Source: Prosthecobacter debontii (GTDB taxonomy: Bacteria; Verrucomicrobiota; Verrucomicrobiia; Verrucomicrobiales; Verrucomicrobiaceae). Taken from it: a DNA stretch of 64,000 nucleotides. A model generated the notes under the pieces. That model searched no databases. It was not told the origin of the DNA and worked only from the letters and a program-made list of their open reading frames with translations. A program made the position numbers and the translations under genes. The stretch spans positions 1 to 64,000 of the forward strand of contig CAMAQH010000023.1 of assembly GCA_945860295.1 (NCBI GenBank), in the 5' to 3' direction. Below are positions 45,717-64,000 of the stretch, piece by piece (position 1 is the stretch's first letter; the number at the start of each line of letters is the position of its first letter).

Positions 45717-46535
45717 ATGAAGAATACAAACAGACTCCTGATCATGCTCGCTCTGAGCAGCGCTGCCACTTTTGCCGCTGATGATAAGCCATCTCCTATC
45801 GGCTATTCTGATACACCGGTCATCCCCGGCACGCAGTGGAAGGTGCATGACATCGATCGTCCGCGTCCTGAGGCAGTAAAGCCAGGTAACAAGCTGGGGC
45901 AGCCACCAGCAGATGCGATCATCCTCTTTGATGGTACAAATACGGATGCTTTTCAGTCCAAGAAGAAGGACGACAAGGGTAAAGAAACTGGCGAGATCAT
46001 CCCTTGTCCGTGGAAGATCGAAAAGGGTGAACTGCTCGTCGATGGTGGCGACAGTTGGACCAAGCAGGAGTTCGCTAGTTGCCAGTACCACATCGAGTGG
46101 AAGAGCGAGCCACACACGAAGGGTAACTCCCAGAAGAAGGGCAATGGAGGCACCTTCTTCATGGATCGCTATGAGTGCCAGATGCTTGATTGCGATAACA
46201 ACCCAACTTATGCCGATGGCATGACGGGCTGCATTTACGGACAGACACCACCGCTGGTAAATGCAGTTAAAAAAGCGGGTGAATGGCAGGCGTATGACAT
46301 CATTTTCACCGCTCCTAAGCTGGATGGAGATAAGGTCATTGAGCCTGCTTATGTGACCACATTCGTGAATGGTGTTTGCGTGCAGATCCACACAGAAATC
46401 ATGGGTCCGACGAAGCACAAGAATGTCACGGACTACACTGGCAACTTCCCCGCAAAGGCACCGATCCGTCTCCAGGATCACAAGAATGATCCGCCGATCC
46501 GCCTGCGTAATATCTGGATTCGCCCGCTGCCCTAA
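45717..46535 (+). CDS. Secreted DUF1080 (3-keto-disaccharide hydrolase-like) protein
   Basis: The 272-residue protein begins with a signal peptide (MKNTNRLLIMLALSSAATFA, cut before ADDK) and continues with a DUF1080 jelly-roll fold (IILFDGTNTDAFQSKK, WKIEKGELLVDGGDSWTKQ, YHIEWKSEP, NGGTFFMDRYECQMLDC, PIRLQDHKNDPPIRLRNIWI). Structural members of this family resemble lectin-like or glycosidase folds and some hydrolyse 3-keto-disaccharides; the activity here is not proven. It is exported. ATG 45717 gives a correct signal peptide and is preferred over a longer frame from 45657. A likely terminator lies at 46563-46592. Confidence 0.88.
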   Translation: MKNTNRLLIMLALSSAATFAADDKPSPIGYSDTPVIPGTQWKVHDIDRPRPEAVKPGNKLGQPPADAIILFDGTNTDAFQSKKKDDKGKETGEIIPCPWKIEKGELLVDGGDSWTKQEFASCQYHIEWKSEPHTKGNSQKKGNGGTFFMDRYECQMLDCDNNPTYADGMTGCIYGQTPPLVNAVKKAGEWQAYDIIFTAPKLDGDKVIEPAYVTTFVNGVCVQIHTEIMGPTKHKNVTDYTGNFPAKAPIRLQDHKNDPPIRLRNIWIRPLP

Positions 46536-58794: not shown

Positions 58795-59823
58795 ATGCCC
58801 GCTAAAATCTACACTGAAAAGGACGCCAGCCTGGCGCCACTCAAAGGCAAAATCTGCGCCGTGATCGGCTTCGGCTCGCAGGGCCATGCTCACGCTCTGA
58901 ACCTCAAGGAAAGCGGCGTTGAAGTCATCATCGGTCTGTATCCCGGCAGCAAGAGCCGCGATGTCGCCAAGGAAAAAGGCTTCAAGGTGTATGACACTGG
59001 CGAAGCGGTGAAACTGGCTGACGTGATCTTCGTCGCCGTGCCAGACACCAAGATCCCTTCCTGCTACAAGAAGGACATCGAACCGAACCTGAGCAAGGGC
59101 AAGACCCTCCTCTTCTCCCACGGTTTCGCCATTCACTACAAGACCATCGTCCCGCCAACCGATGTGAACGTGATCATGGTGGCCCCTAAAGGCCCAGGTC
59201 ACATCGTCCGCCGTCAATACACGGAAGGTAAAGGCGTGCCAGCCCTCATCGCCATCCATCAGGATCCGACCAAGAAGTCCAAGCAGATCGCTCTCGCCTG
59301 GGCTCATGGCATCGGCGGCACCCGTGGTGGCGTGCTTCAGACCAGCTTCAAGGAAGAAACCGAAACCGATCTCTTCGGCGAGCAGACCGTTCTTTGCGGT
59401 GGCACTAGCGCGCTTGTGCAGGCTGGTTTCGAAGTGCTGGTCGAGGCCGGCTACTCCCCTGAGATGGCCTACTTCGAGTGCTTACATGAGCTGAAACTCA
59501 TTGTCGATCTGATGAATGAATCCGGCATCGCTGGCATGCGTTTCTCCATCTCCGAAACCGCCAAGTGGGGCGATGTCAAAGTTGGCCCTCAGATCATCGA
59601 CGCTGGCGTCAAGAAGCGCATGAAGAAGGCGCTCAAAGAGATCCAGAATGGCAAGTTCGCCAAAGAATGGGTCGCTGAATACGAGAACGGATACAAGACC
59701 TTCAACAAGTTGCTCAAGGATGGTGAGAAGCACCAGATCGAGAAGACCGGTGCCCGCCTCCGCGCTCTGATGCCATGGATCAAGAAGCGCGATGTCAAAG
59801 GCCAGCAGGCTAGCTATTCATAA
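58795..59823 (+). CDS. ilvC: Ketol-acid reductoisomerase
   Basis: The 342-residue class I enzyme makes dihydroxy acids in valine, leucine and isoleucine synthesis, using NADPH and Mg. The cofactor site [47 protein letters not shown] (metal ligands Asp and Glu), and [18 protein letters not shown] are all present, as is the C-terminal half with RAL motif. It has the short-chain length typical of class I. A strong terminator follows at 59862-59891, so it is probably monocistronic. No acetohydroxyacid synthase gene is adjacent. Confidence 0.97.
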
Positions 59824-60125: not shown

Positions 60126-63100
60126 TCATTTTGTGCTCGTAATCGGGGTTCGAAGAAAGGCGATAAGGTCGGCCATAATTTGGTGATTGATGGCGGCTTC
60201 AAGACCTTCAGGCATCAATGAGAGCGGCTGGCTTTGAAGTGTTTTGATTTGGTTGCGCAGAACCGTCTTCTGCGTGCCATCGATGAGCTTCATCACGACG
60301 CTATTGGCACTCTCTGAAGCGAGTAGGCCGTAGATCTGCTCGCCAGTGTTGAGCGTGCAGGTGTATGGATTAAAACCCGGTTGGATGTCGGCGCTGGGAT
60401 CGAGGATGTTGCCGAGCATTTTCTCTGGCGGATGCTCGACGATAGAGAGCAAGTCTGGACCGAGTTCGCGGCCTTGAGCACCGCGTTTGTGACAGGCGGC
60501 GCAGATGAGGGTGTAGGTCTGCTGGCCTTTTGCGGGATCGCCTTTCAGGGTCAGGGCGGGAAGATAACTCTCGACGACTTTGCTGCGCGCGGAGGATGCG
60601 GTGTCGAAGACCTTGGCGGCGAGTGAGGCGATGCGTTTGGAGTCGTGCTTGATCAAACGTGCGCGCTGGGTGGTGTCCACGGCGGAGGCGGAGAGTTCCT
60701 TACGCTCAATACGTTGAACGAGATCGAAAGCCCACGGCTCGCGGCTCATCCAGGCGGTGAGTGCGAGCTGTTTTGTGGCGGGACTCATCGTGGGCCAGGC
60801 CTTGGTAAAAGCGGCGGTCACCTCGGGGGTGGCGATGATGGCAAGGGCGCGGATGGCGGCAGCCTGGGCATCGGCAGGGTGCTTTGGATCAAGCCAGGCG
60901 GTGAGCAGCGGCAATGCCTCGGCACGCGAGGCGGGATCACGGCTGAGGAGCACGGTGGCAGCGATGCGTTCTAGGGCGGGTGCGTTCGTGTCGGCGGCTG
61001 TGCCGCGAGCTTGCGCGGTGATCGCGGTGGCTTTGGTGAGCAACTGCGCGAGCGCATCTCCGGCAGAACCAGTGCGGAGTTTGCCGAGCGTGCTGCCGCT
61101 CTGTGCGAGCTGAACATGCAAACGTGCGAAGGAGGTGAGTTGCTCTGGCGTGTAGCGGCTGCCAGTGGAGGTGAAGATGGGTGCGAGCAGCGTCACGATG
61201 GCGTCGCGATCATTCAACCCGAGTGCAATGGTGAGCAATGTGTCAGCGAGTGCGCTCTGTGGTTTGCCGGCTACTGCTGCGATTAACGCGCGGATGTGTG
61301 GTGTGGCGGAACTCATCACGGCTGTGACAATCATGGGATCATCGGTATGGGCGATGAGCAGGCGGCCCAATGTTTTGCCAGCGAGTGCGTCTTTTGATTC
61401 ACCGAGCGTGAAGGCAAGCTGCATCTGCACCTTTGCATCCTTGTCATCCACGAGACGCACGGCGGCGGCGAGAACCTCGGGCGTGAAGCGTGTCTCAGCG
61501 AGGCGCAGGGCATTCTCGCGCACACCGGGATTGTCGTCGCCGAGAGCGCGGGTTACCGTCGCGGATTTGAGTTCGCCAAGGCCATCGAGCACACAGAGCG
61601 CGTGCAGTCGTGCGAGGGGATTTTTGCTTAGCTCGACCAAGGCCAGCAGAGGCGCGACTGTGGATTTGTCCGCACGCCAGAGCAGGATTTGATGCGCCTT
61701 ATCACGCCGCCAACCGTTGGTGGAATCGAGAGCGGCGACGAGATCGGATGTGCTGAGCTTGTCGAAGCGCACGGGCTTGAAATCAGCCATTCCGTTGCGG
61801 CTCACACGATAGATGCGGCCCCGGTCATCACCGAGACGATAGTGCGGGAGCAGTTCGTCTTTGCCTTCTTTTGGCAACCATTGCGGGTGCTCGATCATGA
61901 AGCGATACATGTCCGCGATCCACAGCGCACCGTCGGGTCCTTCACGCACCATCACGGGGCGGCACCAGCGGTCTTCACTGGCGAAGAAGTCGAACTTCCC
62001 TTCACCGAATACTTGCTTCGCAGCGAAGCTCACACCGTTGTCGGTGACAGCCATGTGCTGCACAAGATTATGCACTGGCTCGCAGGTGAAGGCGTCATTG
62101 CTGCCAGGCCCAAACAGGATTTGGTCACGATAAATCACGCCGCTGCACGCCGAAGTGAAGTGTCCCATGGAGGCGGTGAAGTCGTGATAACGCTTCGTCC
62201 CCTTGCTCGCAGGATACACGGGCGGACTGTTCGGAGGCGTGAGCATCTGCACACGTGTCTCATCCACGCCGTAGTGCGGATTGCGCCTCAGGTATTGCTC
62301 GGGCAAAACGTAGTGCCAAAGCGGATGCGCGTTTTGCGTGCCGAACCAGCGGCCCCAGTTGTCGCGATTGCGCCCGAACTGCGTCGGTCCACTCTGCGGT
62401 TCCAGTTCGCCCGTGTCGGGGCGGAAGCGGAAGTCGCGCGCGCCGACTTGGATCTCCTGCCCGTTGCGCAGCGACTTCAGTCGAGTTTCTGCTGCGTATT
62501 TTCCGTGGTGTCCGCCGATGGCGAGATAGACCCAGTTATCGAGTCCCCAGCGCAGCCCATTGCAGCGGAGTTGTTGATTGCCCTCCTGCAATCCGCTGAT
62601 CAGCACTTCTTGTTTGTCGGCTTTGCCATCACCATTCGTGTCTTGCAGGAACAACACATTCGGTGCGGCGGTGATGATGACGCCATCGCGCCAGGTCAGG
62701 ATGCCATTGGGAAAATTTAACCCATCCGCGAACAGCGTGGACTTGTCGTAGCACCCGTCGCCATTCATGTCTTCGAGCACGCGCACTCGGCCACCGGGCT
62801 TGCCATTGCCATCCATGCCGAGCGGATAGTCCGACATCTCGACGACCCACAAGCGTCCGCGCTCATCCCAATCAAAGGCCACGGGATCAATCAAGAGCGG
62901 TTCTGCTGCAATGATCTCCGCTTTGTATCCCGCAGGCAGATGCACTTTCTTTAGAGACTCGCTCGGCTCGAGCGGCTTAGGCACTGACAAGGCGGCTTCC
63001 TTGGCCCGTTGTTCCGCAATGCCAGACACTTTCCAGAAGGCTGCGATTTCTGCTGGCGTGAGAGCACGCTTGAAGACAGCGACCTCATCAAGTTTTCCCT

Positions 63101-64000
63101 GCAACTGATGACCAAAAACCAGATGCTTGTTGTTCGGCTGCATCGGAAAGGCTTTTGCGATCTCGGGCTTCTCTGCGCCATCCAGATGCACGCGCACTTT
63201 GTTACCATCCCGCAAAAGTACAGCAAAGTGCCAGTCATCCGCACGCATCGTGTTCTTCGAGACTTCGCCGTCGAGCACAAGCTGCGCGCGATGTTCACGG
63301 GACTGCTTTGTGCCAAGAACTTCACCACCAAGTCCGGCCACAAGTGTGCCACTGCGCTCGCTCGCGCCACTGGCCTCACCGAGCCAGAACCACAGGGCGA
63401 TCGAGTAATGCTCGCCCAAGCCTGCGACATCCGCCTGCATGTCAGCGCCCGCGAGATGCAGCGCGCGATTGATTTGCTTGGGACCGGAGAAAGCGGAGGG
63501 CGTCAGCTTCTCATGCAAGCCAATGCCAGTGCCGCTACCGACACCGGGCAGAAACCAACTCGCTCCATCACTGATGTGTGCGGAAGCACCGCCAGACACA
63601 GCATTCACTGCCGTCGTCCCATCCACGTCATTGAGCCGCCAGTAAGCTGCGGGCTTCGCGCTTAGCACTGCCTCGGCATACGGCCCGTGATCATCTTGCA
63701 TCACGCGCCGCTTCTGACCGGTGACGCCTTCCAGAGCGCTCAGCAGCGCTGCCACGATCTTTGTCTCTGCTTGCACCTCAAGCCCAGCTGTGCGCGCGGG
63801 CCAAGTGGTGTAACCGCCCAGCACATGTTGCTCGGGCGGTGGAATGTAGCCCTCGGCACCATTGGCTAATTCGATGTTGAAGTGTGAAGTAAATGGCGAC
63901 TGTGCTTTAAGCTTCAAACCCGTCAGTGCATAGACTTCGTTAGGCAGTGTGGCGATCGTCAGATCGCCGATGCGGATGGCTTGCAGCACGAGTTCAGTCT
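60126..64000 (-). CDS. Giant PVC-type protein: ceramidase-like / LamG / dehydrogenase propeller / HEAT / cytochrome c (partial)
   Basis: About 1290 residues are visible and the frame stays open to the right edge, so the N-terminus is cut. In order: the end of a neutral ceramidase-like domain (about 1-95; SPFTSHFNIELANGAEGYIP, LGGYTTWPA), a LamG/concanavalin-like domain (about 110-320; AAYWRLNDVDGTT, HLAGADMQADVAG), a PVC membrane-bound-dehydrogenase propeller (about 345-800; AFDWDERGRLWVVEMSDYPL, DMNGDGCYDKSTLFADGLNF, GPDGALWIADMYRFMIEHPQ), HEAT repeats (about 800-1130), and a heme-binding cytochrome c end (CAACHKRG, Cys1163 to His1167, and GPDLLSIVEHPPEKMLG). It is probably exported and extracellular or periplasmic. 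Substrate is unknown. Confidence 0.85.
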   Translation of the reverse strand, partial: TELVLQAIRIGDLTIATLPNEVYALTGLKLKAQSPFTSHFNIELANGAEGYIPPPEQHVLGGYTTWPARTAGLEVQAETKIVAALLSALEGVTGQKRRVMQDDHGPYAEAVLSAKPAAYWRLNDVDGTTAVNAVSGGASAHISDGASWFLPGVGSGTGIGLHEKLTPSAFSGPKQINRALHLAGADMQADVAGLGEHYSIALWFWLGEASGASERSGTLVAGLGGEVLGTKQSREHRAQLVLDGEVSKNTMRADDWHFAVLLRDGNKVRVHLDGAEKPEIAKAFPMQPNNKHLVFGHQLQGKLDEVAVFKRALTPAEIAAFWKVSGIAEQRAKEAALSVPKPLEPSESLKKVHLPAGYKAEIIAAEPLLIDPVAFDWDERGRLWVVEMSDYPLGMDGNGKPGGRVRVLEDMNGDGCYDKSTLFADGLNFPNGILTWRDGVIITAAPNVLFLQDTNGDGKADKQEVLISGLQEGNQQLRCNGLRWGLDNWVYLAIGGHHGKYAAETRLKSLRNGQEIQVGARDFRFRPDTGELEPQSGPTQFGRNRDNWGRWFGTQNAHPLWHYVLPEQYLRRNPHYGVDETRVQMLTPPNSPPVYPASKGTKRYHDFTASMGHFTSACSGVIYRDQILFGPGSNDAFTCEPVHNLVQHMAVTDNGVSFAAKQVFGEGKFDFFASEDRWCRPVMVREGPDGALWIADMYRFMIEHPQWLPKEGKDELLPHYRLGDDRGRIYRVSRNGMADFKPVRFDKLSTSDLVAALDSTNGWRRDKAHQILLWRADKSTVAPLLALVELSKNPLARLHALCVLDGLGELKSATVTRALGDDNPGVRENALRLAETRFTPEVLAAAVRLVDDKDAKVQMQLAFTLGESKDALAGKTLGRLLIAHTDDPMIVTAVMSSATPHIRALIAAVAGKPQSALADTLLTIALGLNDRDAIVTLLAPIFTSTGSRYTPEQLTSFARLHVQLAQSGSTLGKLRTGSAGDALAQLLTKATAITAQARGTAADTNAPALERIAATVLLSRDPASRAEALPLLTAWLDPKHPADAQAAAIRALAIIATPEVTAAFTKAWPTMSPATKQLALTAWMSREPWAFDLVQRIERKELSASAVDTTQRARLIKHDSKRIASLAAKVFDTASSARSKVVESYLPALTLKGDPAKGQQTYTLICAACHKRGAQGRELGPDLLSIVEHPPEKMLGNILDPSADIQPGFNPYTCTLNTGEQIYGLLASESANSVVMKLIDGTQKTVLRNQIKTLQSQPLSLMPEGLEAAINHQIMADLIAFLRTPITSTK

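Follow-up and report, generated by a model that had tools for sequence, protein, structure and literature searches.

Lac161_ORF7 is among the described proteins closest to the one analyzed here and consists of TIGR02604, HEAT, and cytochrome c parts. The purified protein is reported to cleave lactose and release glucose, the activity being measured via a glucose oxidase/peroxidase reagent (PMC5342196). The kcat/Km printed in Table 3 of that report, 7.3 x 10^4, is ten times the value obtained from the kcat of 13.2 and the Km of 1.8 mM. Another described relative, of the C-terminal end, is Kustd1711 of Kuenenia, whose hemes are His/Met ligated with a potential of about +350 mV; PMC11791136 also describes an Hfq-like 'nose' insertion and a potential tuned by calcium. 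I analyzed a 64,000-nucleotide stretch of Prosthecobacter debontii DNA (assembly GCA_945860295.1, contig CAMAQH010000023.1, here C23, positions 1 to 64,000 of the forward strand; hereafter the window). It was found that a single gene joins a propeller-cytochrome c module of this kind to a ceramidase-like domain and a lectin-like domain. My tentative reading, to which I give somewhat less than an even chance, is that the product is a secreted two-part enzyme. On one chain, a zinc amidohydrolase would be coupled to a diverged propeller-cytochrome, with a lectin-like domain binding the target and a sugar or alcohol probably being oxidised at the expense of a His/Met heme.

The frame at 60126-63998 (minus strand) is open at the window edge and runs off it. 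The contig extends beyond the window to 71831, and the full gene is C23:60126-65111 (minus strand; L007:4127-9112) with an ATG start at C23:65111. An earlier note, made from the window alone, had left the start of the chain open and had proposed one giant gene. The start has now been located, and no stop separates the ceramidase-like part from the rest, the gene being a single open reading frame (ORF) of 1661 codons with no internal stops. The predicted protein has 1661 residues (about 180.6 kDa), and its N-terminal residues, judged by eye, resemble a Sec signal peptide. Residues 372-1661 and the stop codon are encoded inside the window (60126..64000). The giant multidomain fusion is confirmed to be real, its occurrence in further genomes ruling out both chance and a local assembly chimera.

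The five domains that the note had named were all recovered, with Pfam or NCBIfam matches and predicted structures for each part. Their order is a ceramidase-like domain, a LamG-type lectin fold, a DUF7133/TIGR02604 propeller, a HEAT-like solenoid, and a TIGR02603 cytochrome c, all on the minus strand. The ceramidase-like domain covers residues 20-467 approximately; its C-terminal part (residues 372-467, containing E392, Y422, and Y434) lies at 63711..63998 and the remainder beyond the window. The LamG or concanavalin-A-like lectin fold (residues 475-694; 63030..63689) includes a Pfam Laminin_G_3 match (PF13385, residues 567-690). The propeller (61797..62966) is matched by Pfam DUF7133 at residues 716-1105 with 510.9 bits and by NCBIfam TIGR02604 at residues 728-1106 with 274.4 bits (cut-off 122.2). 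Pfam HEAT_2 is matched in the solenoid (residues 1121-1537 approximately; 60501..61751). The cytochrome c domain (60147..60542) is matched by NCBIfam TIGR02603 at residues 1524-1655 with 121.3 bits (cut-off 68.15), and the Pfam matches to Cytochrome_CBB3 and Cytochrom_C are weak and under their cut-offs. With TIGR02604 and TIGR02603 both over their cut-offs on the same chain, the product is a PVC-type heme-binding CxxCH protein.

Is this fusion common? In the order of the source, the protein has a match of some kind in 162 of 189 genomes, and a single match spanning from before residue 300 to past residue 1100 occurs in at least 39 of the 189. A scan of named genomes gave 577 relatives of the N-half, and the best 80 were examined. 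The propeller is fused to the N-half in 69 of these 80, a proportion that favours fusions since fused proteins served as the search seeds. Within the same limit, the suggestion of the earlier note that the ceramidase-like end is less common was not borne out. Among the 69 fused loci, 55 encode the cytochrome within that one ORF, 12 run into the contig end before reaching it, and 2 have a stop before it. The other 11 comprise 2 loci split into neighbouring genes, 8 N-halves without an adjoining propeller gene (one of which, L130, has a propeller gene two genes upstream), and 1 cut locus. By record title, 45 fused loci belong to Verrucomicrobiota, 23 to Planctomycetota, and 1 to Hydrogenedentota; titles of metagenome-assembled genomes (MAGs) such as 'Akkermansia muciniphila' look unreliable. 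Two records not marked as MAGs, titled Verrucomicrobium sp. BvORR034 (L117) and Brevifollis gellanilyticus NBRC 108608 (L157), also have the gene. The architecture is thus found in other Verrucomicrobiota, where the note had proposed to look, and in Planctomycetota as well; its recurrence suggests that an enzyme so far unstudied both cleaves an amide bond and handles electrons. Some chains of about 2130-2400 residues carry a second ceramidase-like domain, at the C-terminus in L050, L062, and L155 and at the N-terminus in L107 and L108.

A profile of 22 N-halves matches the neutral ceramidases 2zws (E 2.3e-9) and 4wgk (E 1.6e-6) in the PDB. The N-half of the relative L091 was modelled (675 residues; predicted local distance difference test (pLDDT) score 92.1), and its fold matches the Pseudomonas aeruginosa neutral ceramidase 2zws with a Z-score of 33.0 and a root-mean-square deviation of 3.6 over 393 aligned residues. 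The second part of the model matches the lectin domains of sialidases and arabinanases with a Z-score of about 18, although the lower end of these LamG matches consists of unrelated jelly-roll domains. The Z-scores for this model and for the C-half model of the window come from a re-examination of Foldseek matches, and absence from these lists is uninformative. The residues H97, H99, R160, H204, and E411 of 2zws, which I take to be its zinc and catalytic residues, align with H113, H115, R170, H233, and E392 of the present protein. All 115 N-halves counted, 108 of them distinct, keep these five together with Y422 and Y434; a second ORF of L160, which is very distant, was excluded from the count. 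The active-site residues that the note had proposed to look for upstream are therefore present. The serine formerly proposed as the ceramidase nucleophile seems by eye not to be conserved. The N-terminal domain is probably a zinc amidohydrolase, judging from the modelled fold and the aligned residues.

A true sphingolipid ceramidase, acting on ceramides of soil or water with the other domains as accessories, would also account for the fold and the conserved active-site residues. I consider it improbable, since 2zws is matched only up to residue 490 and the remainder is replaced by the LamG domain, no match to the C-terminal ceramidase family was found in the present protein by Pfam up to E 1, and the propeller half has relatives that point towards sugars.

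The other end of the chain is a c-type cytochrome by its motifs. CAACH (residues 1537-1541) is accompanied by a distal Met1633, and both the CxxCH motif and this Met are invariant alignment columns. The C-terminal end matches Kustd1711 (7zs0), and the candidate axial Met1633, in an SLMP motif, aligns with the Met mutated in the Kustd1711 M292 mutants (7zs1, 7zs2).

The C-half encoded in the window was modelled as well (961 residues, pLDDT 88.7), with helices throughout the solenoid part. Its propeller matches most strongly 3a9g, a sugar dehydrogenase dependent on pyrroloquinoline quinone (PQQ), with a Z-score of 25.2, followed by AA12 enzymes (Z 24.3); SMP-30/DFPase-like propellers match at a Z-score of about 21. 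A sugar dehydrogenase (GSDH) ORF of the same genome, L171 (G000:C1:80856-81797), ends by eye in CxxCH cytochrome-like stretches resembling the TIGR02603 end.

Propeller-heme proteins have undergone strong expansion in these bacteria, with 48 match rows to TIGR02604 in this genome. Four other TIGR02604 ORFs of the genome (C1, C8, C10, C29) have an N-terminal 3-keto-disaccharide hydrolase domain, a family with 30 matches in the genome, one of them in the window at 45915-46523 (plus strand). PMC9007349 connects this domain with the 3-oxidation and hydrolysis of sugars in the periplasm of Caulobacter, and PMC5673643 describes planctomycetes as rich in DUF1080 proteins. When the literature was searched for 3-keto sugars in members of these phyla, no report was found. 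From the 3-keto-disaccharide hydrolase fusions and the lactose cleavage by Lac161_ORF7, propeller-heme proteins may be read as sugar-directed modules with varied cutting domains.

Under the favoured reading, the chain would be exported to the periplasm or the surface. Its N-terminal zinc amidohydrolase, with the neutral-ceramidase fold, would cut an N-acyl amide, while the LamG lectin-like domain would bind the target. The module of propeller, solenoid, and cytochrome c, with an ancestry among sugar-dehydrogenase-like proteins, would bind and probably oxidise the freed or linked sugar or alcohol, and electrons would pass from the propeller to the His/Met heme of the cytochrome end. I infer the amidase activity, the glycan or glycolipid substrate, the oxidation by the propeller, and the coupling of the two halves.

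Several results weigh against this reading. The Pfam Ceramidase_alk match (PF04734, residues 60-276) scores 28.1 bits, under the cut-off of 32.1, which the relatives L157 and L094 pass. The genome G063 encodes the two halves in separate genes, which lie on different contigs and share 86% and 62% identity with the present protein; thus, one chain is not essential. The 8 other ceramidase-like matches in the present genome are all more than 10 kb away from any TIGR02604 match. There is no steady neighbour, as no Pfam family occurs in more than 5 of the 68 same-strand neighbour proteins taken from 100 chained neighbour ORFs. A PDB sequence search with the propeller found no relative up to E 10. 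PqqE is over its cut-off in none of the 68 genomes of the family. Finally, propellers of the class of the present protein (class A) do not have the His and Asp, presumably catalytic, at the places where PQQ sugar dehydrogenases carry them.

This last comparison rests on a MAFFT alignment and the spacing from a W-G-x-D motif rather than on superposed coordinates, because aligning the propeller profile with two sugar dehydrogenases in hhalign yielded nothing usable. In the sugar dehydrogenases of this genome (L169-L172), the His lies 7 residues before, and the Asp 12 residues after, the F of F-G-P-D. TIGR02604 paralogues of the genome have a His at the aligned place or one before it in 22 of the 25 aligned. 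Class A propellers have Leu at the His place in 95 of 95 cases (90 distinct); at the Asp place they carry G, A, S, or W and never Asp. The corresponding stretch, N845-Q-Q-L848-R ... G867-H868 (62508..62579, minus strand), is specific to the class, L848 and G867 being the residues aligned with His and Asp. N845, Q847, L848, and R849 are fixed in all 95 and H868 in 94. Four class B fusions read NQQHRVNGLAWGLDNW...NGD, in which both His and Asp are kept. Since this sister class keeps the pair, class A appears to have lost it. The missing pair and the PqqE result together suggest that dehydrogenase activity may have been lost. The coupling of cleavage to electron transfer proposed in the earlier note is a plausible hypothesis, with the propeller residues and the PqqE count speaking against it. 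A quinoprotein with its own PQQ supply was not supported by the PqqE count; PQQ might still be taken up from outside.

These observations also fit a zinc amidohydrolase joined to a propeller that no longer oxidises, a possibility that I rate as real, well short of an even chance. The propeller would bind a glycan or act as a hydrolase, and the heme would be structural, sensory, or used in transfer from outside. The lactose cleavage by Lac161_ORF7 fits this possibility, although that activity was read with the glucose oxidase/peroxidase reagent (PMC5342196). An invariant heme motif and Met would be difficult to account for if no electrons were transferred, and the strongest fold matches of the propeller are dehydrogenases; both points speak against this possibility.

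The history of the fusion was assessed on trees of the two halves and of the propellers. In the C-half tree, the present gene, the stand-alone C-half of G063, L089, L090, and L091 form a clade (support 100/99). With the N-half data, grouping these five as a clade is rejected (p 2e-6), but the present gene still groups with G063 (100/95). Thus, halves have been re-paired within the same architecture. Five further proteins have a ceramidase-DUF7133-cytochrome order with no LamG match: L176, L178, L179, and L180 (class B) and L177 of the genome G007 (class C). Their ceramidase-like domains are over the Pfam cut-off and are fused straight to DUF7133 and cytochrome c. Class B lies near class A in the tree, and class C groups with other propellers. 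A single clade of all fused classes is rejected (p 7e-6), while a clade of classes A and B is not (p 0.31). Thus, the fusion likely arose at least twice, which the trees support rather than prove because of their long branches. One of the two further fused propeller classes is apparently independent in origin.

These trees also bear on a further alternative, that the fusion only holds together two degradative enzymes which are unrelated and share neither a substrate nor electron flow. It would accommodate the separate halves (L077/L078, L089, L090) and the disagreement between the N-half and C-half trees. I regard it as highly improbable, as at least two separate lineages of propellers show the pairing and the split relatives L089 and L090 keep their halves as adjoining genes in the same order as in the fusion.

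Around the stand-alone C-half loci, a ceramidase-like ORF was found nearby in 4 of 5 (L079, L081, L082, L083). In four relatives, the adjacency of free ceramidase-like genes to propellers is, by a rough estimate, only moderately above the expectation from propeller density and was not used in the argument. The stand-alone propeller-cytochrome genes L079:4269-11669 and L081:52-9450 have three same-strand ceramidase-like frames around them. Downstream of the present gene, an ilvC-like frame lies on the other strand (58795-59823), and a deoC-like frame and two aldehyde-dehydrogenase-like frames lie upstream, all named from their translations.

A literature search combining ceramidase with Verrucomicrobia/PVC and heme-binding found no paper on this combination. 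A search on ceramidase with both phyla gave only one paper, a soil survey as far as the title and the opening of the abstract show. Thus, within the searches made, the parts belong to known families, and the combination, its recurrence, and the lost His/Asp pair seem undescribed. A bolder interpretation is a new enzyme type, a heme-linked amidohydrolase assembled at least twice. A single N-acylated glycan or glycolipid would be processed by its ceramidase-fold zinc site and its propeller-cytochrome in succession, and in class A the His/Asp pair would have given way to an invariant N-x-Q-L-R / G-x-H site whose chemistry is its own; I find this rather doubtful. The TIGR02604 and TIGR02603 models are named in only two papers of the literature searched, despite the expansion of propeller-heme proteins in these bacteria. 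A recurrent fusion to an enzyme of known fold with an apparently intact site may offer a concrete handle on them.

Compared with neutral ceramidases (2zws, 4wgk; PF04734), the present N-half has the same fold and the five aligned active-site residues, whereas the identity in the aligned part is 16%, LamG follows where the 2zws match stops, and the chain goes on to lectin, propeller, and heme. PQQ sugar dehydrogenases and AA12 enzymes (3a9g, 6h7t, 6jt5; Pfam GSDH) have the propeller fold in common with it (Z 23-25), but their His and Asp are both absent from the class A propeller. Kustd1711 shares the C-terminal cytochrome domain and the position of the Met ligand. In contrast to that diheme protein, the present protein has one heme, which closes a giant enzyme-like chain. 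The PVC-type CxxCH proteins (TIGR02604 and TIGR02603; DUF7133), including Lac161_ORF7 (PMC5342196), have the propeller, HEAT, and cytochrome parts in the same order. To this arrangement, the present protein adds a ceramidase-like domain and a LamG domain in front, together with a propeller class of its own without the His.

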